Origin: Mycobacterium stomatepiae
GTDB lineage: Bacteria > Actinomycetota > Actinomycetes > Mycobacteriales > Mycobacteriaceae
Direction: 5' to 3'
Length of the DNA stretch: 64,000 nt
Assembly: GCF_010731715.1 (NCBI RefSeq)
Contig: NZ_AP022587.1
Span: forward strand, 4,154,001 to 4,218,000
Position numbers and translations under genes: made by a program. Every line of letters starts with the position of its first letter. The first letter of the stretch is position 1. The notes under the pieces are model-generated. The model did no database searches. It had not been told where the DNA came from and worked only from the letters and a program-made list of their open reading frames with translations. Of this stretch, positions 4,048-55,042 are shown in pieces.

Positions 4048-5832
4048 TCACAGGGCCAGCGCCCCGTCCGCCAACTCGTCGAAGCGCTCGAGCGCCGCGT
4101 CGGCGTCGGCGTCGATACCGCGTAGCGGTCCGCGATCGGCGAGGTAGCGCTGCGCGTACAACGAGGCCACCAGTGCCTTGCGCTCGCGTCCGCGGTTCTC
4201 CCGCTCCCAGGCCGCCTGCTCGATCAGCAGGGCCCCGGCGTAGACGTCGCCCATGAATTGGGCCAGCGGGAACAGCCGTGCCTCGGCGACGGCGCCGTCG
4301 AGTTTGGTCCATGCCGTGATCGCGGCGTCGAGATCCTCGATGCGGCGGGCCACCAGGGCGGTGGTTGCCCCACCGTCTCCGCAGTCGTCGGAAAACGACA
4401 CCGCGTCGCGCAGTCGCGCCAACAACGTCTCGTGCGCCCGGGTCTGCTCGATGCCGCGGCGCACATCCAGACACAGGATGTTGTCGGGACCCTCCCAGAT
4501 AGTGTTCACTTGCGCGTCACGCAAAAGCCTTGCCACCGGCCAGGTTTCGATATAGCCGTTGCCGCCGTGGATTTCGATCGCGTCGGACGCCGCGGTGATC
4601 CCCAGCCGGCACACCTTGAGCTTGGTCACCGGCACCGCGATGCGCTGGCGCGCGCTTCGCGGCTGGCGATGGTTGGCCGCCCCGGTGCCGTCGAAAACCA
4701 TGGCCTGTGCGGCTTCGACGTCGACGATCAACTCGGCCAGCTTGCGTCGCATCAGCGGCTTGTCGATCAGCGCCCCACCGAACGCCTGCCGTTGCCGCGC
4801 GTAGCACAGCGATTCGACCAGGGCGCGGCGCGCGTTGCCCAGCCCGAACAACGCGATGCCGAGGCGCGCGGCGTTGGTCAGCTCCATCATCCGGCCCAGG
4901 CCCTTGCCGTCGGACGGCCCCGCGTCGCCGCTGGGTTCGCCGGACAGCAGGAACGCCTCGGCGTCGACGAACTCGACCTCGCCCGAGGCCACCGAACGGG
5001 TGCCGAGTTTGTCCTTGAGTCGCCGCACCCGCACGCCGTTTCGCGAACCGTCGCGGCGGGTGCGCAGCACCAGGAAGTTGGCGATGCCGCGGGTCGAGTC
5101 CGGCGCCCCCTCCGGTTTGGCCATCACCACGAAGGCCTACCCGGCGCAGTTGGAGGCGAACCACTTGAAGCCGTTGAGGATCCACGCATCGCCGGCGCGC
5201 GTCGCCGTCGTCTCCAGCGCGCCCAGGTCGGAGCCGCCGGTGCGTTCGGTCAACAGCTGCGCGGTCTCGCCGGCCCACTCGCCGGAGGCGAACTTGGCCT
5301 GTACGTGCTCCGCGACGTCGGGCGGCGCGTACGCGGCCACGAGCGACTGGACCATGCCGCCGCCGGTGCCCAGCGCGCAGCCCATCCCGATGTCGGCCTG
5401 GTTGAGCAGATAATTCGAGGCGAACAGGGCCAGCCCGGAGCTGACCTTCGCGGCGCGTGCATCGGTGCGCAGGGCCTGCTGAGCGTCCAGCACCGCACGC
5501 TTGGACTGGGTGAACGACGCCGGCATCACGACCTGGCTGACGTCGTGGCCCCACCGGTCGTAGCGCTCCAGCCGCGGCGGGTCGCGATCGATCTCGTCGG
5601 CCCAGCGGGCCACCGGACCGCCCATCAGTTCACCGATGCCGGTCAAATGTGGCTCTATGACCGATAATTCGTCGGGCCGCAGGTAGTAGGCCATCGTGAA
5701 CTGCAGCGTGGGGTCGGTCAGGTACCAGTTCAGACCGACCGCTCCGGTGTAGTTGTCCGTCTGGTAGCGCCGCGACTTTTCCGGGGCGGAGAAGGGCAGC
5801 CGGTCGACGGCCTCAACGTCGTAGTCGCTCAT
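4048..5832 (-). pseudogene. fadE35: Acyl-CoA dehydrogenase FadE35 (AidB-like), interrupted by an amber codon
   Basis: This is an acyl-CoA dehydrogenase of the AidB-like class, next to accD4 as in M. tuberculosis. The frame starts at ATG 5832 and runs 231 residues to a TAG at 5137-5139, immediately after WFASNCAG. It then continues in the same frame with AFVVMAKPEGAP and a complete C-terminal half ending at 4048. The joined length, about 594 codons, equals the length I recall for intact FadE35, so only one codon is affected. The second half keeps typical motifs such as LKDKLGTRS and IHGGNGYIETWPVARLLRD. Unless the TAG is suppressed or a sequence error, the enzyme is lost. The original residue cannot be deduced. 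Confidence 0.9.
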
Positions 5833-5904
5833 GAACGCGACGCTATTACAGCCGGACCGCCGGGTGAAGACATTGCGCAGACCGGCGTTCGACGTGTCCC
5901 ACGC

Positions 5905-6345
5905 TCATCTCGCCAAAGTGCCGACGAGAAAGAGTAAACGGAAATTGCCGATCTGGAGCTCGTCGCCTTCGCTGAGCGCCGCCGAGTCGACGGGTTCACG
6001 GTTGAGATAGGTGTTGTTGAGGCTGCCGAGATCAACGATGTGGAACGTGCCGTCTTCCCTGCGGAACTCGGCGTGTCTACGGCTGACCGTGATGTCGTCG
6101 AGGAAGACATCGCTGGCGGGATGCCTCCCCACGGAAACGACGGGCTTATCCAGTTGAAACTGCGTTCCGGCATTGGGACCTCGCTTCACCACCAGCACGG
6201 CCACTCCGGTTTCCACCGTTCGCATATCCTCAACCGCTGCTTCCGCGATCGCCGCTGAGTCGTCGAAGTCGATGTCCGCGTCGATGCGCGGCGCGGCGGG
6301 GATCTTGCTGGATCGTTGCGGGATGTGTTCTGCTGCCGCGGTCAT
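5905..6345 (-). CDS. FHA-domain protein, GarA-like paralogue
   Basis: This 146-residue protein has one C-terminal forkhead-associated domain, which binds phosphothreonine. The domain covers about residues 48-143 with the classic glycine, serine and histidine positions (SVGRHPASDV, SRRHAEF) and a variant SLNNTYLN where GarA has SLNGTYVN. The core is very close to GarA, the regulator of 2-oxoglutarate metabolism. The N-terminal tail lacks the ETTS-type double-threonine site through which PknB/PknG control GarA; it has EDMRTVETG instead. It lies 13 bases after the upstream membrane-protein gene, so the two probably form an operon. I know of no GarA copy at this place in M. tuberculosis. Confidence 0.85.
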   Translation of the reverse strand: MTAAAEHIPQRSSKIPAAPRIDADIDFDDSAAIAEAAVEDMRTVETGVAVLVVKRGPNAGTQFQLDKPVVSVGRHPASDVFLDDITVSRRHAEFRREDGTFHIVDLGSLNNTYLNREPVDSAALSEGDELQIGNFRLLFLVGTLAR

Positions 6346-6358
6346 ATGGTTACCCCGA

Positions 6359-6826
6359 TCAAGCGGCTCGGGGTAGGTCCGGGCTGGCGCTTACGACTTG
6401 GGGCTCTGGCCGCAGCGGTACCGGGACCCAGCCCACGTAGGTCAAATACAGCCCCATCAGGGCGAATGCCACGCAGAGTGCCATCCACCATCCCTGCGCG
6501 CCGATCATGCTGTTGGCCACCGACGCAAATGCCTTGGGAAAGGCGAAAAGAAGCAGGCCGCGCAGCGTGATAAGCCAGCCCAGCAGGGACACGATGATCG
6601 CCGCGGCGCCCTTCCAATATTGGTGGGCGGCCACGATGACAAGGCCGAGCGCCAGGATGAAGGCGCCGGCCACCCACGACCACAGCGGGCTTGCCTCGAA
6701 ATCCGAAAGGACCGTCCGCATGTCCGACGCGCGCGCCACGGCCGTGACGTCGATGATGACCAGGAATGCGCCGAGCACGCGGGCAAACATGCGCGTCCTG
6801 GCCTGCGGTTGCGGTGAAGCATCCAT
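6359..6826 (-). CDS. Four-helix membrane protein, unknown function
   Basis: This 155-residue protein has about four hydrophobic helices (FARVLGAFLVIIDV, WSWVAGAFILALGLVIVAA, IIVSLLGWLITLRGLLLFAF, WWMALCVAFALMGLYLTYVGW) and short polar ends. I chose ATG 6826 because GGGAGG lies about eight bases upstream; an upstream in-frame start at 6841 has no such site. The gene runs directly into the FHA gene and shares a 214-base divergent region with the DUF1918 gene. I do not recognise a characterised family. The pairing suggests the FHA protein may report on, or be tethered by, this membrane partner, which is inference. Confidence 0.75.
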   Translation of the reverse strand: MDASPQPQARTRMFARVLGAFLVIIDVTAVARASDMRTVLSDFEASPLWSWVAGAFILALGLVIVAAHQYWKGAAAIIVSLLGWLITLRGLLLFAFPKAFASVANSMIGAQGWWMALCVAFALMGLYLTYVGWVPVPLRPEPQVVSASPDLPRAA

Positions 6827-7040
6827 TGTCGTGCCTCCCATCTGGAGCTGGATCTGCCGATCTCATCGGAGCATTCGATAGCAGTGACACGGTAGGGACC
6901 GAAGTCCCGTCCGGTCGGGGCATTCGTCAGTTTGCGAGTCTCGAAAGAGCAGTTGTCGTCAGCGGTGACTTGTGGCCCTCGTTTCACGGAAGGGCCGGGC
7001 GCATGATCGGCCGAGGGGCAACGGCTTGAGGGAGACTGCA

Positions 7041-7310
7041 ATGAAGGCCAACGTGGGTGACTGGCTCGTGATCAAGGGCACTACGACGGAGTTAGCGGAT
7101 CAGCGAGGCTTGATCACCGAGGTGAGCGGGGCCGAGGGCGCGCCGCCATTTGTCGTGCGGTGGCTAGACAGTGGCCACGAGGCAACGGTGTTTCCGGGTT
7201 CGGATGCCGTCGTCGTCACTGCTGCCGAACAGCGGCGCTCCGACGAGCAGGTGCGTGAACGTGTCGCCGCCATGCAGGCGGAGCTGACGCATCGCCGTGG
7301 GGACGACTAG
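7041..7310 (+). CDS. DUF1918 protein
   Basis: This 89-residue soluble protein starts at ATG 7041 behind GAGGGAG. It has the DUF1918 pattern: VGDWLVIKG near the start, then a short beta-rich section (RGLITEVSG, PFVVRWLDSGHEATVFPGSDAVV) and a charged helical C-terminus. DUF1918 proteins are common in actinobacteria and often stress-associated, but have no established biochemical role. An in-frame start 69 bases upstream adds a basic, unconserved-looking leader and is not preferred. Confidence 0.85.
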   Translation: MKANVGDWLVIKGTTTELADQRGLITEVSGAEGAPPFVVRWLDSGHEATVFPGSDAVVVTAAEQRRSDEQVRERVAAMQAELTHRRGDD

Positions 7311-7346
7311 ATCAGCCGTAGGCGCCAACCCGCCGACCGGCACGGC

Positions 7347-7853
7347 TTATACCGGCGCGACAAACTCGGACGTGTAGAACTCGGCCGGTTTTTGGGAATT
7401 CGGATTCGGGCGCTGGATAACTACCCAGACGCCCGTCGTGCCGGGCCGAATAGTGTCCGATACGGTGACCGCTCCGCCGCCCGCCCCGTCGGTGTCCAAA
7501 CCGGAGAACGCGGTACCCGGATCCCCGGGCCCACAATTGCTCGCGGCAGACCGGGGTTCCTGAATCAGGCCGACGTCGAAATGGGTTCCCGGGGCCGACG
7601 CATCCGACAGGCTGACCTCCGCGACCGCTTTGCCCCCCGAGGAATGAACGATGACCTGGCCGGTGCCCAGGGCCGACCGCGGCACCATCGGCACGGTGCT
7701 CACCAGGCTGAAGTCACAGCGCCTGAGCTTGCTGTCCAACACGACGATCGTCCCGCCTTCGGCCTTGGCAGTGGCGATCCCCGCGGTCGCCACCGTCCAC
7801 ATCGCCGCGGCGAACGCTGCCGCGCGCCCGGCTAGCCGCTTCCAACCCTGCAT
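7347..7853 (-). CDS. Secreted protein with signal peptide, unknown function
   Basis: This 168-residue protein has a typical Sec signal peptide: basic GWKRLAGR, a hydrophobic stretch AAAFAAAMWTVATAGIATAKA, and probable cleavage after AKA. The mature part is beta-rich and contains two cysteines, one in RRCDFS and one in SNCGPGDPG, which could pair outside the membrane. It resembles small secreted mycobacterial proteins of unknown role; I cannot name a family. The gene is preceded by an unusually AT-rich 150-base stretch and ends facing the DUF1918 gene. Confidence 0.8.
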   Translation of the reverse strand: MQGWKRLAGRAAAFAAAMWTVATAGIATAKAEGGTIVVLDSKLRRCDFSLVSTVPMVPRSALGTGQVIVHSSGGKAVAEVSLSDASAPGTHFDVGLIQEPRSAASNCGPGDPGTAFSGLDTDGAGGGAVTVSDTIRPGTTGVWVVIQRPNPNSQKPAEFYTSEFVAPV

Positions 7854-7879
7854 TGTGTCACCATTCCCCCCTGTGTCAG

Positions 7880-8040
7880 CTGCACCACAGCGGAGTAGAT
7901 ATTGACCGCTATTTGCTGGAATTAAACCTATTACCTCGAATTACTTGAACGGCAATTAATACGATTTATTTGACCGGTGACAAATTGCGTTTCGCAATTA
8001 ACAAACCGTCGCAATGCAAGCGGTTTCGTGCGGCCTATTT
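7880..8040 (-). promoter_or_regulatory. AT-rich upstream region of the secreted-protein gene
   Basis: The gap between the embB stop and the secreted-protein gene is far richer in A and T than the rest of the window, with runs such as ggaattaaacctattacc and gacaaattgcgtttcgca. It lies on the 5' side of the secreted-protein gene and the 3' side of embB, so it probably holds that gene's promoter. Such AT-rich islands in mycobacteria are typical targets of the silencer Lsr2. No specific -10 box is claimed. Confidence 0.4.
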
Positions 8041-11000
8041 ATGGCTTGATCCGGATCTGGCCGGGCGACCACCATCCGGTGCGGGTCGCGGTGCCCAGGT
8101 CGAGCTGCGCGGGCTGGGCGTCGGCGATGGTTTCGAACCTTCGCAGCGATCCCCAGTCGCGGCCCCAGTCGTGGGACAGGTAGGTCGACATGACGTGGGC
8201 TCGCAGCAGCAAGTCGGTGATGCCCAGCAGGCCGCCGTTGACGCCGTCCTGCCAGGTGTCGGTGTCCTGCTTCTTCGCGTTGTAGTCCGGCGTGATGCGG
8301 AACTTCGGAATCTCGGTGACGCCGTTGACGTGCAGCATCGGCTGCTGGCAGGGGAACGCCAGCCCGACCGCCCAGTCCATCAGCACCGGCTGCGTCGAAC
8401 CGACGTACTCCTGCAGCGAGCGCAGCTCCGGCACCCGCGGCGGGGTCACCGCGATCCAATCGTCCGGCGTCAGCGAAAGATCCTCGGCCACCACCCGCAC
8501 CGCAATCGAGTCGGACGGCGCCTGGGAGCGCGCGAAGCGCAGGTTACGCCACACCTTCGGCTGCTCGCCGTAGAGGTCGTAGGGCACCAGCCGGCCGGCC
8601 GGGAGCACGGCGCCATCGGGCCCGGGCTTGCCGAATTCCAATTCCACGGTCTGCCCGCCGGTGTGGTGGTGCAGGATGCTGTTGCCGGCGATCGCGCCTG
8701 CCGCGGTGACTACCACCAGCGGGTGCCCGTCGTCCGGCTTCGGTAGCTGGTACCACGCCGAGGTGAGCCGGCTCTGCTGTTGCGGGCCGCTGGTGTAGCT
8801 CCCGGCTACCGGAACCCGCGCGGGGTCCAGCCCGTAGGGCAACGGCAGAAGTGAGCCGTTGATGCCCGGCGCCGTCAGCTTGGTCGGCCCGTACCAGTCG
8901 TAATCGGTACCGGGCTGCGGCACTGCCGTCTCCCGAACCGCTTCGGCCAGTGTGCGTTCCGGGACGCCGTTGGCGCTGAATCCGGTGGGGTCGAGACCAC
9001 CTAGCGCGCCCAACGGGCCATAGCTTCCGGGGTATGGCGTCATGAAGCCGGCGTTGCTGTCCGGCTCGACGAGCACGTCGTCGGCCAGCCCGCAGCCGCC
9101 GCTGAACTCGCGCAGGTTGTCCCAGGCATTGGAGTAGGTGGGGTACTGGCGCACGATGCCGGCCGTCATCGACGCCACGAACACCAGCGCCATGAAGCCG
9201 GCCGCGAGCGGTATCGGTGCCGCCGTCAGCGCTCGCGCCAGCCGGCCCTCGCCATGGCTCGGGTCGGCGAAATGCAACCAGGCCGCGTACACCGCGGTGA
9301 TCGCGAAGAAGGCGAAAAAGATTGTGCTGATTGAGATTCCGCCGACCTTCGGCATGCTGCTGTTGAACGGCACGCCATAGCTCGAGACGTACCACCAACC
9401 GTTGGTGGTGGCGAAACACAGTGCCAGCACGAACATCAGCGCCGCCAGGAACGCCATCCGGTTACGCGACCAGTGCAGCACCTTCGGCGACACCAGCACC
9501 GTCGTCAGCGCCGCCATCGCCGCGCCCACCGCGGCGAACAGCCCGAAGTGGTGCACCCACTTGGTCGGGGTGAACATCAGGAAGAACATGGTGCCGAAGA
9601 TGACACCGATCAACCGCCAGGCCGGGCCGCGGGCGACGCCGGGAACGCGCTTGCGCCGCAACATGATGAACAACGCGGTGAACAAGCACAGCGCGGTGAT
9701 CAAAAACCCGAACCGGCGCGACAGCGAACCGTCGACGGTGGGCAGGATCAGGTAGTAGTAGCGCAAGTTCTCGGTGTACCAGGCCTGGCTGGGCCCGATG
9801 TCTGTGCGAATCCTGGTGGCTTCCAACACCGTTGACAGCGTTTGGTCGGCGAATACCACAGTGAGGATCACGAAGCCGGCGGCCAGGATCGGGGCCACCA
9901 GCGGCCAGGTGCCGACCAGGCGATGTCGCTTGACCAGAATGCGCAGGACCGGACGTCCACCGGCCACGAGCGCGGCCACCGCGATCAGACCGGTGGGCTG
10001 CACGCCCAGCGTGAAGGCCGCGGTGATCACCGCGAGCGCCGCCGGGGTCAGCCGAGACGCGCACATCGAGCGCTCGATCAGCACGTAGGTGATCAGCGAA
10101 CCGACCGCGATGATCGGCTCGGGCCGCAGCCCGTTGTCGAACGGCATCCACGCGGTCAGCAGCACCAGGCCCGCCGCCCAGTTCGCGGCCGTGCTCGACG
10201 TCACCGCGGGCCCCAACCGGGGCAGCACCTCACGCGAGAGCAACAGCCAGCACACCAGCCCGGCGATCAAGTCGGGCAGTCGCATCCACAGGCTGGCATC
10301 GCTGACGTGGGTCATCAGCGCCAGCAAGTTGTAGTACCAACCAAACGGGTCTTCCGGGCTGCCGAACCAGCGGAAGTAATTGGACATGTAGCCGGCGCGA
10401 TCGGCGACCCGGGCCATGCCCAGGATGTAGCCGTCGTCCGAGGAGTTCGCCCCGATCACATGCCACAGCAGGAAGCCGAAGATCACCGTGGCGTCGGCGA
10501 GGGTGAATTTCTTCCAGCGAGTCGGGATCAGCCGGTGCATCCGGTGACCGTCCAGCTGGTCCAGTCGCCACAGCGCGATCAGCGAGACGATCGTCGACAG
10601 GATCGCGCCGACCATCGCCAGCAGCTTCAGTGTCGTTGGGGTGGTGGAGAACCGGGTGTCGATGGTCGACGAGAACTTCAGCCCCGGCGGCGCGGGGCCG
10701 GTCAGATCGGTAAAGACCCCGACGATCTGCGGGCGCAGGTTAGGGTCGTTGAATCCGCCGCCGAGCGGCTTGCCGGCCGGGTCGGTCAGCCCGACGAAGG
10801 TGGCGAAAGTGCCTGCGCGCGTGGAGGTTATCTCGATGCGCTGGCACTGATCGGACTCGGCTTGCTCGCGCGACGCACTGGCGATCACCACGTTGCGGTC
10901 GGTGACGTCGACGCGCTTGGCGTTGGCGACGACGAACAGCGCGTTGAGCGCCGCGTCCTTCCCCTTCTTAGGTGCGGTGCTCAGCACCACGCCGCCCTCG

Positions 11001-11272
11001 GGCGGCAGGCCGCGCACCACGTCGCACGGCACGGTGGCCGTCACGTCGACCGGGCTCAGTGAAATCAGCGGAGCCGTAACGCTATTCAGCTGGTCGTGCC
11101 CATCCCCGTTTTGGGGCCAGTTCAGCATCGCGGTGGTCTGCACGACGGGCAGCAGCGGTGTCGCGACCGACAACACGAAGCCGATCAATCCGGCGATCGT
11201 GGCGACCCACCGGGTCACCCGGATGTCGTCACGGGCGGCGGCTTCGGCGGGCCTGTCGAGGACGACGCTCAT
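8039..11272 (-). CDS. embB: Arabinosyltransferase EmbB
   Basis: EmbB is a GT-C membrane arabinosyltransferase that, with EmbA, adds alpha-1,3-branched arabinofuranose to arabinogalactan, using decaprenyl-phosphoryl-arabinose. The 1077-residue protein has an N-terminal helix, a periplasmic beta domain (about 45-210), a multi-helix membrane core and a large C-terminal carbohydrate-binding region. The catalytic acidic motif [13 protein letters not shown] is at about residues 277-289. Met286 in it corresponds to M. tuberculosis Met306, the main ethambutol-resistance site, and is wild type. The ATG overlaps the embA stop by four bases, so the two are translationally coupled. Confidence 0.97.
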
Positions 11273-15869: not shown

Positions 15870-16495
15870 CTATTCGGGCAGTCTCGCGGCGAACGCGGCA
15901 CAGCCCGGGCCGCTGAGGTCGGTTAGCGCCGCGCGACGCCCCGCCATCGCCATCAGCAGGGCTTCACCCGGACCGATGACCTCGGGCCCCCTGCCGTGGG
16001 TCCAGTCGACATCGGTGGCCCGCAGCCGCAGCCCCCGGATCCGTCGGCCGGCGCCCAGCCGTGGATTGCCCGGCACTAGGCCGAGCACTCGCTCGAGCCG
16101 GTCGACCGGCACGCTGCGCGGCCGACCCAGCGAACGGCGGATGTCCTGGTGATGAATCGTGGCGTCGACGAGGGCGATCATGCCGCCGAAACCTGCTGTC
16201 AGTCCCCGTGGCTGGAGGTGGCTGCGCAGAAATGCGAGCAGTTGCTGGGTGCTCAGCGGGGCGAATTCGTCGACGCCCACCTGGTTGGCCCGGACGACCC
16301 AGCCCTTCGCAAACCGCTTCAGCAGCCCGAGCTTGTCGAGCTCGTCATAGCTGACCACATGCGCGACAACGTCTTTCACGCTCCACCGTGAGCACAGGCT
16401 GGGTGTTTCCCAGTCCTGCGGGCTCAAGTGGTCAGGAAATCCGCGAGGTCGGCGCGCTCGTCGTGGGCCATGCTCATCATCGATGGCACGGTCAT
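15870..16495 (-). pseudogene. DinB/maleylpyruvate-isomerase-like protein, frameshifted near the N-terminus
   Basis: This belongs to the mycothiol-dependent maleylpyruvate isomerase / DinB-like four-helix family. The natural start is ATG 16495, which overlaps the stop of the upstream gene (ATGA). It gives MTVPSMMSMAHDERADLADF and then a stop at 16424-16426. The conserved continuation LSPQDWETPSLCSRWSVKDV follows in another frame and runs on to 15870. The span of 626 bases is one short of a multiple of three, so a single-base deletion near 16425-16436 explains it. Keeping HH in ATIHHQDIRRSLGRPR suggests recent loss. A downstream internal start would remove the first helix. Confidence 0.8.
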
Positions 16496-25685: not shown

Positions 25686-26108
25686 TCAGTGAATGCGGAA
25701 GATCACGGCTCGCTGCACGATGAAGTTGATCACCGTGGCGGTGCCCTGTGCGATCACGAACGCGACGACGGCAGCCCACCCCGTGTAGTGCATCAACACC
25801 AGACACAGATGGTTCAGCCCGACCTGCACGGCGAAGGTGATGCCGTAGAGAACCATGACCGCGATGAAGCGCGCGGTGCTCGGCTCCGCCTGGAAAGTCC
25901 ACCGCCGGTTGATCAGGTAGGCGGTGAGGGTGCCCACCACGAAGCTGGTGGCCTTGGACACGTCGACCTGAACGCCCAGCACCTTCCAGAGCAGCATGTA
26001 TAGCCCGAAGTCGACTACGGCCGAAAACCCGCCGGTCACCACGAAACGGGTGATCTGGGTGGTCAGACTCAGGCGCGCCGGCGCGATGTCTGACTCGGGG
26101 GGAAGCAT
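25686..26108 (-). CDS. GtrA-family membrane protein (Rv3789-like)
   Basis: This 140-residue protein has four membrane helices ([77 protein letters not shown]) and the GtrA-family NRRWTF loop. Its M. tuberculosis counterpart sits directly upstream of dprE1 and has been proposed either as a flippase for decaprenyl-phosphoryl-arabinose or as an anchor for AftA. The start, ATG 26108, gives a longer polar N-terminus than the 121-residue version I recall. It heads the dprE1-dprE2-aftA-embC run. Confidence 0.9.
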
Positions 26109-26146
26109 TGGGGGAGTTTATCGGGGGCGGGCGCGCCCCAGCGGAG

Positions 26147-26626
26147 CTACTTGGGCAGCTTCAGCGCGATCAGCTCGACCTGGCTTTCGCCCTGCGGGGT
26201 CGAGTAGGTCACGGTGTCGCCGGCCTTGTGCCCGGCCAGCGCCTGCCCCAGCGGGCTGTGGGAGGTCAACGTCTCGGCCTCACGACCGACGGGCGTCTCT
26301 TCGACGATGGAGATCACGTGCATCGTGACGATCTCACCGTCGGCGAACTTCAGGGTCACCTCGGTGCCGCCCGGCAGCGAATTGTCCTCTTCGTGGTGCG
26401 ACGGCCCGGTCCGCAGCCGCCGGTCCAGTTCGTTGATCCGGTCGCCGAGGCCAACCAATTCCTCGGCGCGCTGGATCGCCTCCGCCGCGTCACCGTGATC
26501 ACCGGTCATCCCGCGGTCGCCCTTGACCTCGGCCTCGAGAAGATCGCGCCGCTCTCGCAGCCGGTCCAGCTCCGCGGCAAGACTCTCCCGCGCCGCATCC
26601 GCCACTGATTGAACTTTTTTACTCAC
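26147..26626 (-). CDS. GreA/Rnk-like transcription-factor homologue (Rv3788-like)
   Basis: This 159-residue protein has an N-terminal helical, coiled-coil-like half (SLAAELDRLRERRDLLEAEV, AEAIQRAEELVGLGDRINEL) and a C-terminal FKBP-like GreA domain ending DTVTYSTPQGESQVELIAL. The M. tuberculosis homologue Rv3788 binds RNA polymerase near the secondary channel and inhibits transcription rather than rescuing it. The GTG start at 26626 has GGAAGG upstream. The frame is open 150 bases further upstream, but that part is unlike the family. It lies 38 bases before the GtrA gene on the same strand. Confidence 0.9.
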   Translation of the reverse strand: MSKKVQSVADAARESLAAELDRLRERRDLLEAEVKGDRGMTGDHGDAAEAIQRAEELVGLGDRINELDRRLRTGPSHHEEDNSLPGGTEVTLKFADGEIVTMHVISIVEETPVGREAETLTSHSPLGQALAGHKAGDTVTYSTPQGESQVELIALKLPK

Positions 26627-26839: not shown

Positions 26840-28073
26840 TCAGCGCGCTGGCTTTACCGGGTCCGGCCGGAACCACGGGAATCTCGGGGCTCTCGGGAAT
26901 TCAGGTTCAGGCCGACACGGACGTGCTGAGGGACGTGCGCTGGGACGCACTGTGGGATGTGCTGTTCGACAGCTACAGCGAATCTGTTGGTGCACACTAT
27001 CATTCGCGATGATTTGCTGTGACGACGCGTCCGTGGTCCCGGTGAACGTCGCGTTGTCGTCGTACTCGACGATCTCGCCGCGCAGCGCGTCGAAGATCGC
27101 CTTGCCCTGCGACACGAGTCCACTGGCCACCTGGCTGAGGCCGTCAGCCCCGTTGAGCACGGTGAGATTCGCGCCGGCGAGCCCGGCCGCGGCCCGCTCC
27201 ACGATCTCGGGCAGCTGGTCGATCAGCGCCTTGTCCAGCGCGACGCGGTTGTGCGACGCCGCCGCCTCGGCCAGGATCTTCATCCGCTCGGCATCGGCGA
27301 CGGCCAGGATCCGGACGCGTTCGGCCTCGGCCTCGGCGGGCTTGACCACCTCGGCGACCAATTCCTGCTGGCGCAGTTCGGCGGCGCGCTGGGCCAGTTC
27401 GGTTCGCATCGCGAGCACCTCGCGCTGGGCCTCGGCTTCGGCCAGCGGGCCCGCCTGGGCGGCCTCCGCCTGGGCCTTGTCGACCTCCGCCTTGTACTGC
27501 GCCTTGACGACCGCGGTCTGACGGGCGAATTCCGCCTGCTGGCGCTGGGATTCCTGCTCGGCTTCCGCGGCTTTCTGGTTCGCCTGGGCCTGAGCGATCT
27601 GCGCCTGCTGCTGAATGGCCGCGTTGTGCGGTGCCGACATCGCGTTGATGTAGCCCAGGCCGTCGTCGCCGATGGACTGGATCTGCAGCGCATCGACGGC
27701 CAGGCCGATCCGGGCCATCTCCTCCTTGGAGCCATCGAGCACCTCGGTGGCCAGCGAAGATCCGGCCGGTCAGTACCGACATCTGATCCTGCTCGGACAA
27801 AAATCGCTGCGCGGCGCTGATGATGCTCTCGGTGTCGTTGCCGACCTTGAAGGCGATCACCGCCCGGACGTTGAGGGTGATTCCCTGTTGGGTGACGCAC
27901 TTTTCGGCGACCTCGGACTCACACATGGCCAGGGTGAGAAAGCGCGCCTTGCGGAAGAACGGGAGCACAAACGCGCCGTGGCCCGTCACCACACGGAACG
28001 GGGCGTTGCCTTTCGCGCGGCCACCGGAGATGAGCAACGCCTCATCCGGGGAGGGCACCCTATAACCGAGCAT
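26840..28073 (-). pseudogene. Flotillin-like SPFH/band-7 protein with internal frameshifting deletion
   Basis: This was a flotillin-like membrane-scaffold protein. From ATG 28073 (AAGGAG upstream) the frame encodes a normal SPFH start, PSPDEALLISGGRAKG through DQMSVLTGRIFAGH. It then loses register near 27745. The rest of the family follows in another frame: LATEVLDGSKEEMARIGL, an Ala/Gln-rich coiled coil, and VVKPAEAEAERVRILAVADA. About 20-25 residues expected between the two parts are missing. The junction is the hexamer GGCCAC, which fits deletion between two copies. The 3' end contains a 12-base tandem repeat and the original C-terminus is unclear. An NfeD-like gene lies upstream. Confidence 0.85.
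26919..26966. repeat. Four imperfect 12-base tandem repeats at the 3' end of the flotillin remnant
   Basis: Four consecutive units (ggacgtgctgag, ggacgtgcgctg, ggacgcactgtg, ggatgtgctgtt) fill 26919-26966. Read on the minus strand they encode the low-complexity HPTVRPSARPSARP tail. Such repeats can vary in number between strains. Confidence 0.7.
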
Positions 28074-45719: not shown

Positions 45720-45938
45720 CTAGGAGTCGCTGTCGGGGTGCTCGTCGTCCTTCGACTTGCCTGGCATCGGCCCCACCGTGGCGATCATGGGGATTTTCAG
45801 CGTCTTACCCCCGGCGATCGGCAGGTGGATCGCGACGAACACGATCTTGAGCTCCACGCTCACCTGCCGCAAGGGCTGTTCGTACAGGTCAAAGCGCATG
45901 TCCCGCAATCGCGCCAGGCCGCGCTCGAGCCGACTCAT
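45720..45938 (-). CDS. Small hypothetical protein, 72 residues
   Basis: This short gene has GGGAGC just before ATG 45938. It encodes a basic N-terminus (SRLERGLARLRDMRFDLYEQ), a hydrophobic but not clearly membrane-spanning middle (LKIVFVAIHLPIAGGKTLKIP) and a very acidic tail (KSKDDEHPDSDS). I do not recognise the family. It is 21 bases upstream of the stop of the next same-strand gene only in coordinate terms: that gene is transcribed first, so the two may share a transcript. Confidence 0.55.
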   Translation of the reverse strand: MSRLERGLARLRDMRFDLYEQPLRQVSVELKIVFVAIHLPIAGGKTLKIPMIATVGPMPGKSKDDEHPDSDS

Positions 45939-45959
45939 GCTCCCGACCCTACCGGCCCG

Positions 45960-46439
45960 CTATGGGCGGGGCTCGAACGGCCGGCGCGTCGGCACGGTCA
46001 CCGTCTGGGTAACCGTGCTGGTCTCCGTGCTCGGCGACAGCGTGACGGTGCTGGTGCTTGGCGGCACCGTCGTCGTCGGAGTGTCGGTGCTCGGCGGAGG
46101 CGGCCTTTCGGTCACCGTCTCGGTCGGGCCGCCACCGCCCGGTGGATGATGCCGGGTGTGCTGCGGGGCCGTGGTGGTCACGGTCGGCGTGGGGGACGGT
46201 GTGGGCGTCGTCGTGGTCGTCGGACTTGGGGTCGGCGATCCGCTCACCAGCGTGACGATCGCGTAGATCGCCAACCCGAGCACGATCGCGCCAATCGCGC
46301 CCGCGCCGACCAGCGCCAGCGGGCGTCGGTACCACGGTGTCGGGGGCTCCGGCTCGGGCGCGGGGTCATAACCGCCGCCGTAGCCCGCCGCCATTGTCGG
46401 CTCGGAGTAGTAGTCGGGTTCCTCGGGGGAAGGAGGCAC
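45960..46439 (-). CDS. Single-pass membrane protein with Thr/Pro-rich extracellular tail
   Basis: This protein of about 159 residues starts at GTG 46439, downstream of the phosphotransferase stop. It has a short acidic, tyrosine-containing cytoplasmic part (PEEPDYYSEPT), one helix (LALVGAGAIGAIVLGLAIYAI) and a long Ser/Thr/Pro-rich outer segment. The outer part is low complexity and likely O-mannosylated, as in similar mycobacterial proteins. No enzymatic domain is visible, and the function is unknown. Confidence 0.7.
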   Translation of the reverse strand: MPPSPEEPDYYSEPTMAAGYGGGYDPAPEPEPPTPWYRRPLALVGAGAIGAIVLGLAIYAIVTLVSGSPTPSPTTTTTPTPSPTPTVTTTAPQHTRHHPPGGGGPTETVTERPPPPSTDTPTTTVPPSTSTVTLSPSTETSTVTQTVTVPTRRPFEPRP

Positions 46440-46450
46440 GTCAGAAGATG

Positions 46451-47482: not shown

Positions 47483-47508
47483 GTGGTAGGAACCTACTCT
47501 GCGAGTGT

Positions 47509-47856
47509 TCAGCCCTTGGGTTTCGGTGTGTACCGCACGGTCTGCGCGCGGATCATGCCGTCGCGGAAGACGAAGGTGTCGACGCCGTCATCAACCCGGT
47601 TGAGCGCCGAATCGGCAGCCCACTCGAGGAACAAGACATCGCCGACGAAGAATTGGGTCTTGAGGTCCCACGCCGCATCCGGCAGGTCGGCGAGCAGGGT
47701 GGCGAAGACGTTGCGGATACCGTCTTTGCCGTGTGCGATTCCGGCGCGGCTGATCAGCACGGAATCGTCGGCGTAGTCGGCGACGATCTCGTCGAGATCG
47801 CCCGCACCGAGTGCCTGCCCGTGGTGGGCGAACACCTCTTCGGGCGTGCGTGTCAT
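47509..47856 (-). CDS. SnoaL/NTF2-like protein
   Basis: This 115-residue NTF2-fold protein has the pattern VFAHHGQALGAGDLDEIVADY, then a beta-sheet half (LKTQFFVGDVLFLEWAAD, VDTFVFRDGMIRAQTVRY). Members act as polyketide cyclases, isomerases or ligand-binding proteins, and the substrate here is unknown. I chose ATG 47856, where the family begins; the longer frame adds an unrelated leader. It lies 26 bases upstream of the phosphotransferase on the same strand. Confidence 0.82.
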   Translation of the reverse strand: MTRTPEEVFAHHGQALGAGDLDEIVADYADDSVLISRAGIAHGKDGIRNVFATLLADLPDAAWDLKTQFFVGDVLFLEWAADSALNRVDDGVDTFVFRDGMIRAQTVRYTPKPKG

Positions 47857-47982
47857 CGCGGCACTCCTTATCTGTGGGACCTCTGTGAAGACAGCGTAAG
47901 TCAGCCTTCGCACGTGCCAAGAGGCGTCGGGGGCTGAAAGAATAGTGAACGCAACCGACTATCAAGGTGGAGAGGACTGGCG

Positions 47983-48924
47983 ATGCCGCGCACCGACAAC
48001 GATTCCTGGGACATCACGCAGAGCGTGGGGTCCACCGCTCTGGGGGTCGCGGCGGCCCGCGCCGCGGAAACCGAGAGCGAGAATCCGCTCATCAACGACC
48101 CGTTCGCGCGTGTCTTCGTCGACGCCGCGGGGGCGGGGATGTGGAGCATCTACGCCGATCCCGCGTTGTTGGCCAAGGCGGTCGAAATCGAACCCGAGGT
48201 GCGCACACAGACACAGCTGATGGTCGACTTCATGGCGACCCGGACCGCGTTCTTCGACGAGTTCTTTCTCGGCGCGGCCGACGCGGGCGTGCGCCAGGTG
48301 GTGATCCTCGCGTCGGGTCTGGACGCTCGCTCGTGGCGGCTGCCGTGGCCCGACGGCACCGTGGTGTACGAACTCGACCAGCCCAAGGTGCTCGACTTCA
48401 AGACCGCCACGCTACGAGACCACGGCGCGGATCCCACCGCGCAGCTGGTGACCATACCGATCGATCTTCGGCAGGACTGGCCAAAAGCGTTGCAGGACTA
48501 GGGCTTCAACCCTGCGAAACCGACCGTGTGGTCGGCGGAGGGCTTGGTACGCTACTTGCCGGCGCAGGCGCAGGACCTGTTGTTCGAGCGCATCCATTCG
48601 CTCAGCGCGCCGGGCAGTTGGCTTGCGTCTAACGTGCCAAGTCAAGGATCCAACGACCCCGATCGGGTGGAGCGCCAGCGCGAAGACATGAAGCGCATGC
48701 GCGCCGCGGTCGCCGAGGTGGTCGACGCCGAGATCACCGATGTCGAGGACCTCTGGTATCCCGAAGAGCGCACTCCGGTCGACGAATGGCTGCGTGAGCG
48801 CGGCTGGGACGTGGCGGCGGCAACCTTCCCGGAGCTGATGGCGCGCTATCACCGCACGGTGCCAGAAGGGGCTGACGACGCCATGCCGCCCACTCTCTAT
48901 GTGTCCGCGCAACGCCGGCACTAG
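47983..48924 (+). pseudogene. SAM-dependent methyltransferase (TIGR00027/LCMT family), interrupted by an amber codon
   Basis: This belongs to the leucine carboxyl methyltransferase-like family that is expanded in mycobacteria; its place matches Rv3767c. The frame from ATG 47983 includes [27 protein letters not shown] and the SAM motif [16 protein letters not shown]. It then meets TAG at 48499-48501 after WPKALQD. The same frame continues with [20 protein letters not shown] and a normal C-terminus to 48924, giving 313 sense codons plus that TAG. TCG (Ser) to TAG would need one change, but the original codon is unknown. Confidence 0.88.
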
Positions 48925-49226
48925 GGCGTGATGACGATTCGCTGATCGGTGCCGGTGTCGTTCCATGCGGCTTCGACGTCGGCGAGTGGCACGGTTCGGG
49001 CATCGAATTCGAAAGCACCGCTGCTGATTTCGGTCGCGATGGCGGGCAGCTCGGCCAGAATGTCGCGGGTCGGGACTGAACCTTGTCCGCTGCCGACGAT
49101 CTGCAGGCGCACGGCGCGCAGTGCCGCGGAGAAGATCTCGTCCGAAGGACCCGCGACCGAACCGATTTCGATCCAGGCAAGTGGCTTACCGCGGTCGGTG
49201 CGGTGCGTGGCTATGCCGGCCATCAC
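48921..49226 (-). pseudogene. C-terminal fragment of a medium-chain alcohol dehydrogenase/quinone reductase
   Basis: About 100 C-terminal residues of a medium-chain reductase remain (KPLAWIEIGSVAGPSDEI, ALRAVRLQIVGSGQGSVPTRD, VPLADVEAAWNDTGTDQRIV). The GroES-like domain and most of the Rossmann domain are missing. The open frame begins inside the divergent MarR gene, so a deletion has fused the two loci near 49210-49240. Such reductases are commonly divergent from a MarR regulator, which supports loss of the whole intervening part. Confidence 0.8.
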
Positions 49227-49626
49227 CTCGGCCGTGATCGGACCCCTCGTTCAGGTGTCGTTCGCAGTGACCGCAGTGCTGAATCGCGTTGCCGCCGAAC
49301 ATGATCTGTCCCTGACTCAGCTACGGGTCCTCGGGATACTGCGCGATCGCGAACCCGCGATGGCCGAACTGGCCACGTATCTGGGGCTGGAACGCTCTAC
49401 CGTCAGTGGCCTCATCGACCGCGCGGTCCAACGCGGGCTGGTGCGCAAGACCACCGACGCCGTCGACGGCCGTTCGGTGCGGGTCAGCCTCATCGCGCAG
49501 GCGCGGCGACTCGAGGTGCGGATCATCGCCGAGATCGGTGAGCTGATGGAGCCCATCACCGGCCGGCTCAACGCCGCCGACCAGAAGCGGCTCGCCGAGC
49601 TGTTGGCGAAAATGCTTGAGCGCTAA
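49213..49626 (+). CDS. MarR-family transcriptional regulator, 5' end possibly altered by deletion
   Basis: This winged-helix regulator of about 137 residues has SLTQLRVLGILRDREPAMAE, LATYLGLERSTVSGLIDRAV and the wing DAVDGRSVRVSLI. The domain itself is complete. The first codons (ATG 49213, MPAITSAVIGPLVQ) overlap the remnant dehydrogenase, so the original start may have been lost and this one acquired. Its former divergent target is now a stub. Confidence 0.75.
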   Translation: MPAITSAVIGPLVQVSFAVTAVLNRVAAEHDLSLTQLRVLGILRDREPAMAELATYLGLERSTVSGLIDRAVQRGLVRKTTDAVDGRSVRVSLIAQARRLEVRIIAEIGELMEPITGRLNAADQKRLAELLAKMLER

Positions 49627-49712
49627 GGTCGCCGCAGGGCGAACGCGGGCTCCACCTCGCAACCTGCGACGTCGAGCATCACGGCGGCCACCACGTAGTG
49701 GCCCACCAGCAT
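49623..49712 (-). pseudogene. Short C-terminal remnant, 29 codons
   Basis: This short open frame encodes MLVGHYVVAAVMLDVAGCEV followed by EPAFALRRP and a stop, overlapping the MarR stop. The composition looks protein-derived, like the end of a larger gene whose start has been deleted. The family is not recognised. Confidence 0.25.
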
Positions 49713-49808
49713 AGCGCCCCAAAAGTTTGCCGCGACCATGTTTAGACATGAGTCCAATGGGTATCGCTACGCGACGGGAAAATTTTCTCGGACACAACGG
49801 AGGTCACG

Positions 49809-50045
49809 ATGCGTGGTCGCGGAATAATCGGCGCGATCGTCTTGATTTGGCTGATCGTTGGAGTCTTCGCGGCGTGGCAACGCGACTACTTCAAAACTGG
49901 GCAAACGGATTGTGTCACAGCGGGAAACATTGCACTGACTGTGATCGCGGGGCCGTTGAACTACGGGGGTGTCAACCCCAAGGTCAAGGATTGCCATGTC
50001 CCGCAACCTAGTTCAATGTCTGGCCATTTAGAGTCCCTCACGTAA
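49809..50045 (+). CDS. Small single-pass membrane protein
   Basis: This 78-residue protein has GGAGG upstream of ATG 49809. One N-terminal helix (GIIGAIVLIWLIVGVFAAW) is followed by a short outer part with two cysteines (TDCVTAGNIALT and VKDCHVPQPSS) that may be disulfide-bonded. Similar short proteins occur in actinobacteria beside DUF6131-type genes, as here. The function is unknown. Confidence 0.72.
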   Translation: MRGRGIIGAIVLIWLIVGVFAAWQRDYFKTGQTDCVTAGNIALTVIAGPLNYGGVNPKVKDCHVPQPSSMSGHLESLT

Positions 50046-50056
50046 AGGAAGTCGTC

Positions 50057-50212
50057 ATGATCGTCTTGGGCGTGGTCCTACTCATCCTCGGATACCTGTT
50101 CGCAATTCCTTTGCTGTGGACGATCGGCATTGTCCTGATCGTCATCGGCGCCGTCATGTGGGTCCTCGGCTCGGTTGGCCGGCCGGTGGGTGGCAGGCGG
50201 TACTGGTACTAG
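50057..50212 (+). CDS. DUF6131-like small hydrophobic membrane protein
   Basis: This 51-residue gene starts at ATG 50057 with AAAGGAAG upstream. It encodes two short membrane helices (VLGVVLLILGYLFAIPLLW and IGIVLIVIGAVMWVLGSV) and a basic aromatic tail (GGRRYWY). The pattern fits the DUF6131 family of tiny actinobacterial membrane proteins. It lies 11 bases after the preceding small membrane protein, so the two form an operon. Confidence 0.7.
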   Translation: MIVLGVVLLILGYLFAIPLLWTIGIVLIVIGAVMWVLGSVGRPVGGRRYWY

Positions 50213-50324
50213 GTACAGCCTGCGGTTTCACAGGGCACACAAAGGAATGTCATAGCGTCGGCCCAGTCGGGCGCGGATACTGGAACATGTGACGCAGCCT
50301 CGAACTTCCGTGGAGCGCGTTGTC

Positions 50325-51029
50325 ATGTGCCGTGCGGACGGCAATCCAATCAACGTGCTGGTCGTGGACGACGAATCCGTCTTGGCCGAAATGGTGTCGA
50401 TGGCGTTGCGGTACGAGGGCTGGAATATCGCGACCGCCGGTGACGGATCATCGGCAATCGCCTCAGCCCGTGCCCAGCGTCCCGACGTGGTCGTCCTTGA
50501 CGTGATGTTGCCCGACATGAGCGGTCTCGAGGTCTTACACAAACTGCGCGAAGAGAATCCGCAGTTGCCGGTGCTGCTGTTGACGGCCAAGGATGCGGTC
50601 GAAGATCGCATCGCGGGTTTGACCGCGGGTGGCGACGACTATGTCACCAAGCCGTTCAGCATCGAAGAGGTTGTACTGCGATTGCGCGCGTTGTTGCGGC
50701 GCACCGGCGTTACGACGGTGGACAGCGGCGCGCAGCTCGTGGTCGGCGACTTGGTGCTGGACGAGGACAGCCACGAAGTCACCCGCGCCGGCGAGCCGGT
50801 GTCGTTGACCTCCACCGAGTTTGAGCTGCTGCGGTTCATGATGCGCAATTCCAAGCGGGTGCTGAGCAAGGCGCAGATTCTCGATCGGGTCTGGAGTTAT
50901 GACTTCGGCGGTCGGTCCAACATCGTCGAGCTGTATATCTCGTACTTGCGCAAGAAGATCGACAACGGCCGCGAACCGATGATCCACACGCTGCGCGGTG
51001 CGGGTTATGTCCTCAAGCCTGCCAGCTAG
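50325..51029 (+). CDS. tcrX: OmpR-family response regulator TcrX
   Basis: TcrX is the response regulator of the TcrXY two-component system. It has an N-terminal receiver domain with acidic VVDDES, phospho-acceptor Asp in VVLDVMLPDM and conserved Lys in DDYVTKPFS, and a C-terminal winged helix (LTSTEFELLRFMMRNSKRVL, RSNIVELYISYLRKKI). ATG 50325 gives 234 residues, the length recalled for Rv3765c; an upstream GTG at 50289 would add 12. It overlaps the start of tcrY by 32 bases. Confidence 0.94.
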   Translation: MCRADGNPINVLVVDDESVLAEMVSMALRYEGWNIATAGDGSSAIASARAQRPDVVVLDVMLPDMSGLEVLHKLREENPQLPVLLLTAKDAVEDRIAGLTAGGDDYVTKPFSIEEVVLRLRALLRRTGVTTVDSGAQLVVGDLVLDEDSHEVTRAGEPVSLTSTEFELLRFMMRNSKRVLSKAQILDRVWSYDFGGRSNIVELYISYLRKKIDNGREPMIHTLRGAGYVLKPAS

Positions 51030-52524
51030 GGCACGGCGAGTCTGGTCGCTTCGGCTCCGGCTCCTGGTTGGGCAGGTCATTGTGCTCGCCCTCGTCTGCG
51101 TGGGGATCACTGCGGCGACTGAACTTTCGCTGAACCGCCACTTGGTGCGTCAGCTCGACGGCCAGCTGGGCGGGACTTCGCGCCGCTCGGCGCTGATGTA
51201 CCCCGAACCGAATCGTCCCGGGTGGCGTCACGACCACGGCTTCAACCCGCGGCCGGGCCCCGGCCCGCGGTTCCTCGACGCTCCCGGGCAGCCGGCGGGC
51301 ATGGTCGCCGCGGTGGTCAGCGACGGCAAGACGGTCGACGCCGGCTACCTGACCAGCATCGGATCCCGGGCCGCGCTGACCGACAAGGCACAGAACCAAC
51401 TCGCGGCGATCTCCGGCAGCCGCAAGCCGGTGACCCTGGATCTCGACGGCCTCGGGCGCTACCGCGTCGTGGCGGCCCCGAGCCGGCGCGGTGGCGACGT
51501 GATCGTCACCGGACTGTCGATGGACGACGTCGACGCCACCCTGATCCAGATGGCGGTGATCTTCGGAATCGTCACGGTAATCGCATTGGCCGCGGCGACG
51601 ATCGCCGGGATGGTGATCATCAGACGAGCACTCGCGCCGCTGCGTCGCGTCGCTCAAACCGCGCGCAGGGTGTCGAATCTGCCGTTGGACCGCGGGGAGG
51701 TCGAGCTGCCGGTGCGGGTTCCCGAATCCGACGCCAACCCCTCCACCGAGGTGGGCCAACTGGGGTCGGCGTTGAACCGGATGCTCGACCACATCGCGGC
51801 CGCGCTGTCGGCACGGCAGGCCAGCGAGACCCGGGTCCGGCAGTTCGTCGCCGACGCTAGTCACGAGCTGCGCACGCCGCTGGCGGCGATCCGCGGCTAC
51901 ACCGAACTCACTCAACGGATGGGCGACGATCGAGAAGCGGTGGCACACGCGATGAGCCGCGTCGCGTCGGAGACCGAGCGGATCACGCGGCTTGTCGAGG
52001 ACCTCCTGCTGCTGGCCCGCCTGGACTCGGGCCGCCCCCTGGAACGCGAACCGGTTGACCTGTCGCGGGTGGCGGTCGACGCAGTCAGCGACGCGCATGT
52101 CGCGGGACCCGACCATCAGTGGGAGCTCGACCTGCCCGAGGAGCCGGTGATCGTCGTCGGCGACGCGGCACGGCTGCATCAGGTGCTGACCAATCTTCTG
52201 GCCAACGCGCGAATTCACACCGGCTCGGGGACTGTCGTCACGACGCGGCTGAGCACCGAGCCGGCACATAGCGTGCTGCAGGTGGTCGACAATGGCCCCG
52301 GTATTCCGGCGGAGCTGCAGTCGGAGGTGTTCGAGCGGTTTGCTCGCGGCGATACCTCGCGCTCCCGCAAGGGCGGCAGCACCGGGCTGGGACTGGCGAT
52401 CGTCTCCGCCGTCGTCAAAGCGCACAACGGAACGATCAGCGTCAACAGCTCGCCCGGTCATACCGAGTTCACGGTGCGGTTGCCACTCAATGGGTGGCAA
52501 CCGCCCGCAGCCTCGCCTAGCTAG
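50998..52524 (+). CDS. tcrY: Sensor histidine kinase TcrY
   Basis: This 508-residue membrane kinase pairs with TcrX. Two helices ([17 protein letters not shown] and [19 protein letters not shown]) flank an extracellular sensor segment rich in Pro/Gly/Arg. Then come a HAMP region, the phospho-accepting [17 protein letters not shown] and an ATPase domain with [17 protein letters not shown] and [10 protein letters not shown]. The GTG start at 50998 is used here; ATG 51007 is an alternative. It is somewhat longer than the 475 residues I recall for Rv3764c, mostly in the sensor loop. The 3' end overlaps the convergent lpqH gene by eight bases. Confidence 0.92.
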
Positions 52525-52993
52525 TGCAGGTGACGTCGATCTCGAAGGGCTTGTTCACCGGTTGCGTGGGGTTGGCCATGTCCACGCCCGTGGCGGTCCC
52601 GGTGATCTTGTAGCTGTTGCCGTTCTTGGTTGCCGAGGCATTGCCTCCGCCGCCGGCCGACGCGTACGCCAGCGTCACGCCGTTGACATTGCCCAGCCCA
52701 ACCGACGTCACGGTCGGCGGGTTGCCGTCGCTGAGCACCGCGGCGATGCCGGTCGCGGCCCCGCCGATCGCGATGTTGACGGTGCCGCCTACGGTTGTGC
52801 ACACGACCGAGCCGCTGACGTTCTGGTCCTTGCCGTCGATGATCACCTTGGTGCCACCGCCCCCGCTGGAGCTGGCCGAAGTGCTCGCGCCCGACGAGGA
52901 CCCACTCGAACTTTTCTTGTCGCTCGAACAGCCAGAAATGCCGGCGACCAGAATCGCTACTCCGGCTACCGCGACCGTCAGTTCACGCTTCAC
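52517..52993 (-). CDS. lpqH: 19-kDa lipoprotein antigen LpqH
   Basis: LpqH is the abundant surface lipoprotein and TLR2 agonist. The 158-residue protein has a signal peptide with lipobox AGISGCSSD, a Ser/Gly-rich glycosylation-prone linker ([20 protein letters not shown]) and a beta domain with two cysteines (VVCTTVGG and IDVTCTS). Length and position opposite tcrY match Rv3763. ATG 52993 begins the typical [11 protein letters not shown]. Confidence 0.96.
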
Positions 52994-53101
52994 CTGTTCT
53001 CCTTTGCCCGATCGTTTCGGACCTCGACATTGAGGGCCGCCAACGCAGTATGCCGCGTTTGCCGGGCCGCATAAAAGAGGTTCACCGAAATTGTTACGTC
53101 T

Positions 53102-53151
53102 GGGTTAACCCGGCTGCTCTCAAGACGTCCTTTCGGGCAAGGGTGGGTTAA
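53102..53151. promoter_or_regulatory. GGGTTAACCC palindrome and half-site in the lpqH/sulfatase gap
   Basis: The divergent gap holds a perfect ten-base palindrome GGGTTAACCC (53102-53111) and a second half-site GGGTTAA (53145-53151), the latter just before the sulfatase start. It may be an operator for either gene. No cognate regulator is identified. Confidence 0.35.
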
Positions 53152-53161
53152 TGGCAATGTA

Positions 53162-55042
53162 TTGCCGGTGGACCACAAGCCCCCCACCTCAGCCATCGAA
53201 TCGGCGCATCGTGAACATGCCCTGCCCTGGGACGACACAACGGATTTCGACAATGCTGATCGTGGATTCATCGCCTCCTTGTCGCCCTGTGTCATCAAGG
53301 CTGCCGATGGCCGTGTGGTGTGGGACAACGACGTCTACGCCTTCCTCGAGGGTCCCGCGCCGACGTCGGTACACCCCAGCCTGTGGCGCCAATCGGGGCT
53401 GAACGCCAAACAAGGCCTGTACGAAGTGGTGCCGGGCATCTATCAGGTCCGCGGCTTCGACATCTCCAACATCACGTTCGTCGAGGGCGACACCGGGATC
53501 ATCGTGATCGACCCGCTGGTGTCCACCGAGGTGGCCGCCGCGGCGCTGAATCTCTACCGCGCCCATCGCGGCGCGGACCGCCCGGTCGTCGCGGTGATCT
53601 ATACCCACAGCCACGTCGACCATTTCGGTGGCGTGCTGGGCGTGACCTCGCAGGCCGACATGGACGCCGGGGCGGTGGCCGTGCTGGCCCCGGAAGGTTT
53701 CACCGCGCACGCGGTACAGGAGAACGTCTACGCCGGTCCCGCAATGACCCGCCGGGCGACCTACATGTACGGCACATTGTTGGAACGCGGACCCCGGGGA
53801 CAGGTCGGCTGCGGGCTCGGTCAATCCCCGTCGACGGGTGAGGTCGCCATCATCGTGCCGACCATCGACATCCGGGAGACCGGTGAGACGCACACGATCG
53901 ATGGCGTGGAGATCGAGTTCCAGATGGCGCCTGGCACCGAGGCTCCCGCCGAAATGCATTTCTATTTCCCACGTTTCCGCGCGTTGTGCATGGCCGAGAA
54001 CGCCACTCACAATCTGCACAACCTGCTCACCCTGCGCGGGGCACTGGTCCGCGACCCACACGCTTGGTCCGGCTATCTCACCGAGGCCATCGACACCTTC
54101 GCCGGTCGGGCCGACGTGGTGTTCGCCTCGCATCACTGGCCGACCTGGGGACAGGAAGCCATCGTCGAGTTCTTGTCGCTGCAACGTGACCTCTATTCGT
54201 ACCTGCACGACCAGACGCTTCGCCTGCTCAATCAGGGTTACAACGGTGTCGAGATCGCCGAAATGTTCCAGATGCCACCGGCTTTGGATCGGGCATGGCA
54301 TACCCGCGGCTACTAGGGATCGGTCAGCCACAATGTCAAGGCCGTCTACCAGCGCTACATGGGTTGGTTCGACGGCAACCCGGGCCGGCTCTGGCCGCAT
54401 CCCCCCGAGGCCCTCGCGCCCCGCTACGTCGATGCGATGGGCGGGATCGACCGCGTCGTCGAGCTTGCCCAGACGGCTTTCGAAGCGGGCGACTTCCGCT
54501 GGGCCGCGACGCTGCTTGACCACGCGATCTTCACCGACAGCGATCACCCCGCTGCTCGTACACTGTACGCGGACACGCTGGAGCAACTGGGCTACGGCGC
54601 CGAGAACGCCACCTGGCGCAACTTCTTCATCAGCGGCGCAACCGAATTGCGCGACGGCAACTTCGGCACCGCCACCACGGCCACCTCGACGTCGATGCTG
54701 AGTCAACTGACCCCGGAGCAGATCTTCGACAGCCTCGCCATCAGTGTCAACGGACCGCGCAGTTGGGACCTCGACCTGGCCATCGACATCACCTTCGCCG
54801 ACCTGGCCACCAACTATCGACTAGCCCTGCGCAACGGCGTGCTCGTCTACCGCAACGTCGGCGCCAACCCCGCGACGGCGGACGTTACGGTCAAGCTGGA
54901 CAGCAAGTCTCGCCTGTTGGCGGTGGCGATGGGTGATGTCACCTCGGCGGGGCTCGACATCTCGGGCGACCGGTCGGCACTGCAGTCGCTGCTGAATGTG
55001 CTCGACAAGCCGGACCCGAGGTTCAACATCGTCACGCCGTAG
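53162..55042 (+). pseudogene. Type III alkyl sulfatase (SdsA1/BDS1 family), interrupted by an amber codon
   Basis: This is a zinc metallo-beta-lactamase-fold alkyl sulfatase that would release alcohols from sulfate esters. The frame contains the zinc motif THSHVDHFGG, the second-metal region MAENATHNLHN and SHHWPTWG. It is broken by TAG at 54314-54316 immediately after WHTRGY; the same frame resumes GSVSHNVKAVYQRYMGWFDG and runs to 55042 with the dimerisation and SCP2-like lipid-binding C-terminal domains. The family has YYGS here, so TAC to TAG explains the lesion. The joined 626 codons equal the length recalled for Rv3762c. The start is TTG 53162 or GTG 53168. Confidence 0.9.

Follow-up and report, generated by a model that had tools for sequence, protein, structure and literature searches.

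Three private in-frame TAG codons in a 64 kb window of the Mycobacterium stomatepiae genome: probable recent nonsense changes with the TAG share expected from codon usage

We analysed a stretch of 64,000 nucleotides (the window) at positions 4154001-4218000 of the genome of Mycobacterium stomatepiae, a single contig of 6,210,822 bases with an assembly completeness of 100. Three genes of the window, encoding the acyl-CoA dehydrogenase FadE35, an S-adenosylmethionine-dependent methyltransferase and an alkyl sulfatase, are each interrupted by one TAG codon (Table 1). In all three the reading frame runs on past this codon to the normal end of the gene, which in two of them (methyltransferase and sulfatase) is itself a TAG, and the pieces of the alkyl sulfatase carry the Lactamase_B, Alkyl_sulf_dimr and Alkyl_sulf_C domains. 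A first-pass annotation had described one amber codon in each of these otherwise full-length and conserved frames, with no TAA or TGA among the three lesions. This description holds at the three codons and along the frames, since the Mycobacterium triplex proteins align, with one stop each, to the interrupted FadE35 (91% identity over 100% of the M. triplex protein), methyltransferase (89% over 97%) and sulfatase (90% over 100%). The ratio of nonsynonymous to synonymous substitution rates (dN/dS) is low, well below 1, on both flanks of the stop in all three genes.

Table 1. Positions in the window of the three interrupted genes, their pieces and their premature stop codons
Feature	Position	Strand	Basis
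fadE35 (AidB-like acyl-CoA dehydrogenase), whole interrupted frame	4048-5832	-	
fadE35, 5' piece, 231 residues, last codon TAG 5137-5139	5137-5832	-	Pfam AidB_N and start of Acyl-CoA_dh_M
Premature in-frame TAG of fadE35	5137-5139	-	Sequence; private among 139 matched genomes
fadE35, 3' piece, 360 residues, natural end TGA 4048-4050	4048-5130	-	Pfam Acyl-CoA_dh_1
Methyltransferase, whole interrupted frame	47983-48924	+	
S-adenosylmethionine-dependent methyltransferase (TIGR00027), 5' piece, 172 residues, last codon TAG 48499-48501	47983-48501	+	LCM/TIGR00027 domain
Premature in-frame TAG of methyltransferase	48499-48501	+	Sequence; intact protein identical on both flanks
Methyltransferase, 3' piece, 140 residues, natural end TAG 48922-48924	48502-48924	+	Pfam
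Alkyl sulfatase, whole interrupted frame	53162-55042	+	
Alkyl sulfatase (metallo-beta-lactamase fold), 5' piece, 384 residues, last codon TAG 54314-54316	53162-54316	+	Pfam
Premature in-frame TAG of alkyl sulfatase, within dimerisation domain	54314-54316	+	Sequence and Pfam
Alkyl sulfatase, 3' piece (most of dimerisation domain and C-terminal domain), 241 residues, natural end TAG 55040-55042	54317-55042	+	Pfam

The three stops were not seen in the relatives searched, a comparison that the first-pass annotation had recommended. M. triplex, the top match (94%) to the sulfatase piece among the best 80 loci of a search of genome contigs, has a genome that is collinear in reverse order, with larger blocks mostly at 84-92% DNA identity, and its copies of all three genes are open. 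At a cut-off of 1e-200, fadE35 was matched in 139 of 396 genomes of the genus (257 gave no match), and the matched part of the gene, which is only partial in some genomes, is free of stops in 136 of the 139. A single TAG occurs in M. stomatepiae alone; stops elsewhere are one TAA in genome G271 and six TGA in genome G076. The orthologue in the latter, from Mycobacterium (G076:C10:60352-62112, L230), aligns over its full length with no TAG or TAA, and the list of open reading frames (ORFs) shows no single long frame there. The alkyl sulfatase was matched in 58 of 60 genomes, and only in M. stomatepiae does a full-length match contain one TAG; the copy in G045 is fragmented (one TGA and one TAG), and two distant members of the family (approximately 30% identity) have one TGA each. 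For the methyltransferase, the family was matched in 57 of 60 genomes, 17 of which besides M. stomatepiae show at least 68% identity, and among the matches listed the M. stomatepiae copy is the only one with a stop. Among the best 120 protein matches listed per search, the closest full-length records to the FadE35 and sulfatase pieces are 96-99% identical and probably represent a sister lineage; as the database is clustered at 90%, closer copies of these two proteins may be hidden in it.

Internal stops were then counted by comparing 1.26 Mb of M. stomatepiae with 1.20 Mb of M. triplex, on gene frames predicted by a simple codon-bias script rather than a published gene finder. M. triplex genes were kept if their best match reached at least 85% identity with at least 70% covered (n = 748; n = 769 for the reverse count). 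Before filtering, M. stomatepiae contained 30 stop sites (16 TAG, 8 TGA and 6 TAA), 14 of which were removed for their position or weak flanks, so that the strict set comprises 16 genes out of 748 with 12 TAG, 2 TAA and 2 TGA. The corresponding figures for M. triplex are 8 TGA, 2 TAG and 2 TAA before filtering, and three genes out of 769 (2 TGA, 1 TAA and no TAG) in the strict set. An earlier count with looser criteria, covering 0.86 Mb and 565 genes matched at 70% identity or above, gave 17 TAG, 4 TGA and 2 TAA; it was superseded because it let in matches at 75-81% identity, several stops being present in some of them, that seem to reflect errors of frame prediction.

The first-pass annotation had held that equal numbers of TAA and TGA interruptions would remove any TAG-specific interest. 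The numbers are indeed unequal (12/2/2), but equality proves to be the wrong yardstick: codon usage alone predicts a TAG:TAA:TGA ratio of about 60:20:20, so stop counts have to be set against a mutational null and not against equal thirds. We built this null from the codon usage of M. triplex and the base changes observed between the two genomes, which gives an expected TAG share among new stops of 0.604 (codon positions 1 and 2) or 0.661 (position 3); simple models with transition weights from 1 to 8 give approximately 0.60, and GC-to-AT transitions alone 0.59. No TAG excess over the mutational expectation of 0.60-0.66 was found in the 1.26 Mb (12 of 16, P = 0.18-0.32). Three TAG out of three in the window have a P of 0.22-0.29 under the same null, which removes the TAG-specific interest; that this run needs a special explanation is not supported. 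Two other nulls, equal thirds (P = 0.0008 for 12 of 16) and terminator usage (P = 0.0005), were rejected, as single-base access to the three stop codons is unequal. A run of premature TAGs in a GC-rich genome is thus what codon usage leads one to expect. The local density is somewhat high, with three TAG in 64 kb compared with 0.61 per 64 kb calculated from the 12 in 1.26 Mb (Poisson P of about 0.02, a value qualified by the choice of the window on account of these very sites).

We may wonder at this stage whether UAG can be read as a sense codon in this organism. None of the 46 tRNA genes, that is all of the RF00005 matches as read by ARAGORN (30 loci plus 16; tRNAs outside RF00005 would be missed), has a CUA anticodon. 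Two tRNA-Cys(GCA) genes are found in the M. stomatepiae genome, at G000:C1:6009367-6009437 and 1515105-1515175. Both release-factor genes with a PCRF domain are open and free of stops (387 and 383 residues); an RF2-type motif is present in one and absent from the other, and we take them on these motifs to be release factors 2 (RF2) and 1 (RF1), respectively. PylS was not detected, with a best score of 22.3 bits against a curated cut-off of 178.15, which one of 14 control genomes passes. TAG terminates 339 of 1073 predicted genes (31.6%; a few of these ends are the premature stops themselves), compared with 324 of 1026 in M. triplex. Finally, by next-base composition no read-through context is seen around the 12 strict internal TAGs: the following base is G in five, A in three, C in two and T in two, a pattern close to that of the first position of sense codons (G 0.42, C 0.27, A 0.19 and T 0.13). 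Natural TAG ends differ in having C as the most frequent next base (163 of 339).

These results bear on inefficient amber suppression, that is a low level of UAG read-through in the lineage that would make TAG breaks more tolerable than TAA or TGA breaks. The conserved flanks and the TAG at 12 of 16 strict sites would suit it, as would the comparison with M. triplex (TAG to other stops 12:4 versus 0:3, Fisher P = 0.036, a value that depends on three M. triplex sites), which hints at a TAG bias in M. stomatepiae. In-frame stops under purifying selection have also been reported in bacteria by Belinky et al. (2021; PMC7918605); yet the sharing of a stop by two or more genomes, which serves as the criterion in that study, is not seen here in the relatives searched. 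The TAG share fits mutation alone, and the tRNA set, the two open release factors, the PylS score and the everyday use of TAG as a terminator all speak against suppression, which is unsupported apart from the hint of the three-site comparison. We therefore agree with the first-pass annotation, which had ranked suppression as less likely, and consider it very improbable. A variant in which UAG would be read without a suppressor tRNA, through the efficiency of the ribosome, an elongation factor or a release factor, with a little full-length enzyme still made and amber breaks selectively tolerated, seems to us more improbable still.

Broken genes are, on the other hand, more frequent in M. stomatepiae than in M. 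triplex. The nonsense-broken genes of the strict sets (16/748 versus 3/769) differ with P = 0.002, the same method finds 32 of 748 genes frameshifted in M. stomatepiae compared with 14 of 769 (P = 0.007), and the predicted coding density is 0.846 compared with 0.884. Together with the absence of the three stops from the relatives searched, these counts agree with what the first-pass annotation considered the simplest reading, namely either a recent loss of function or scattered errors in the sequence. With error in the sequence or assembly, one or more of the three codons would be a sense codon in the organism itself. The normal constraint on the flanks is compatible with this, as is an intact public record of the methyltransferase, P0249 (313 residues; four member sequences from four contigs), which is 100% identical to both pieces in the window (172 and 140 residues) and presumably comes from another strain or from another assembly of the same species. 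However, the residue of P0249 at the stop position, which is rare in relatives (1% of 90), cannot be reached from TAG by a single base change, so the difference exceeds one miscalled base; the record and the window are thus more than one base apart at 48499-48501, although the other 312 residues are all identical. At 4 of the 12 strict TAG sites, two or three bases separate the codon from its M. triplex counterpart, approximately the share found for ordinary replacements (4605 of 12925). Only 4 of the 56 short indels in frameshifted genes lie in homopolymer runs of at least four bases (4 of 19 in M. triplex), which is unlike typical long-read error, although some indels may be alignment noise, a single frame-breaking gap being found in only 14 of the 32 frameshifted genes; homopolymer error is not supported as the cause of the frameshifts in M. 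stomatepiae. The single-contig assembly and its completeness also argue against error, which we regard as unlikely for the three stops.

The explanation that we favour, with fair confidence, is that the three stops arose recently by nonsense changes private to this genome and are true loss-of-function alleles; sequence error may account for some of them. We infer both the presence of these changes in the organism itself and the loss of function of the proteins. With normal termination at TAG, each gene would yield a truncated protein: the acyl-CoA dehydrogenase would end within its middle domain and the sulfatase within its dimerisation domain, and the methyltransferase would have 172 of about 313 residues. 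In mycobacterial genes many codons are near TAG and few are near TAA or TGA, so that about six in ten new stops would be TAG; all three stops would be TAG because of this abundance. The low dN/dS on both flanks would fit recent breakage. Two observations weigh against this explanation: the TAG contrast with M. triplex described above, and a dN/dS that is hardly raised in the nonsense-broken genes (median 0.136, n = 12, leaving out the four that are also frameshifted, compared with 0.110, n = 710; P = 0.066), which would be compatible also with error or with partial function. Another possibility is that the genes are split, their halves being translated separately by re-initiation and the pieces cooperating. 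Possible in-frame starts do follow soon after each TAG (ORFs from 5130, 48526 and 54359), but the breaks fall inside domains (the middle domain of the acyl-CoA dehydrogenase, LCM and the sulfatase dimerisation domain) and no relative listed is split at these places, which makes this highly improbable.

TAG is not the only type of lesion in the window: two matches are frameshifted, one gene is truncated and one match has two stops. An SPFH/flotillin-like gene (27014-28073, minus strand) is spread over two frames when compared with M. triplex, and its Band_7 and Flot matches are just under the cut-off; a gene at 15873-16489 is likewise matched in two frames in this comparison. At 48924-49244 (minus strand) 34% is left of an M. 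triplex zinc-binding dehydrogenase, directly followed on the other strand by a MarR-type regulator, in what looks like a deletion adjoining the methyltransferase. The sequence at 25689-26156 (plus strand), which contains two stops, is 75% identical to half (51%) of an M. triplex frame of 306 residues; it may be either a pseudogene or a wrongly predicted frame. Beside fadE35, at about 5900-7300, the window has no match to a frame of 589 residues predicted in M. triplex (285518-287287), a frame that may be spurious.

How do these three genes compare with known systems? Amber codons can be recoded by suppressor tRNAs, by pyrrolysine or in codes that read TAG as Gln. The in-frame TAGs in conserved genes resemble such cases, whereas here no CUA tRNA or PylS was detected, the presumed RF1 gene is open and TAG is a common terminator. 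The conserved in-frame stops with suspected read-through of Belinky et al. (2021; PMC7918605) share with ours the in-frame stop, the conserved flanks and a dN/dS well below 1, but ours were seen in one genome only (396 genomes searched and 139 matched for fadE35; 60 searched for each of the other two). The mutational null takes away a tempting recoding story, and what is left, the loss of the genes, is a minor matter of strain biology. Bacterial nonsense pseudogenes are like the three genes in having one premature stop in a conserved frame, in one genome only, with frameshifts and deletions alongside; they differ in that selection is not clearly relaxed here, so the breaks would be recent. The three genes would thus be ordinary broken genes.
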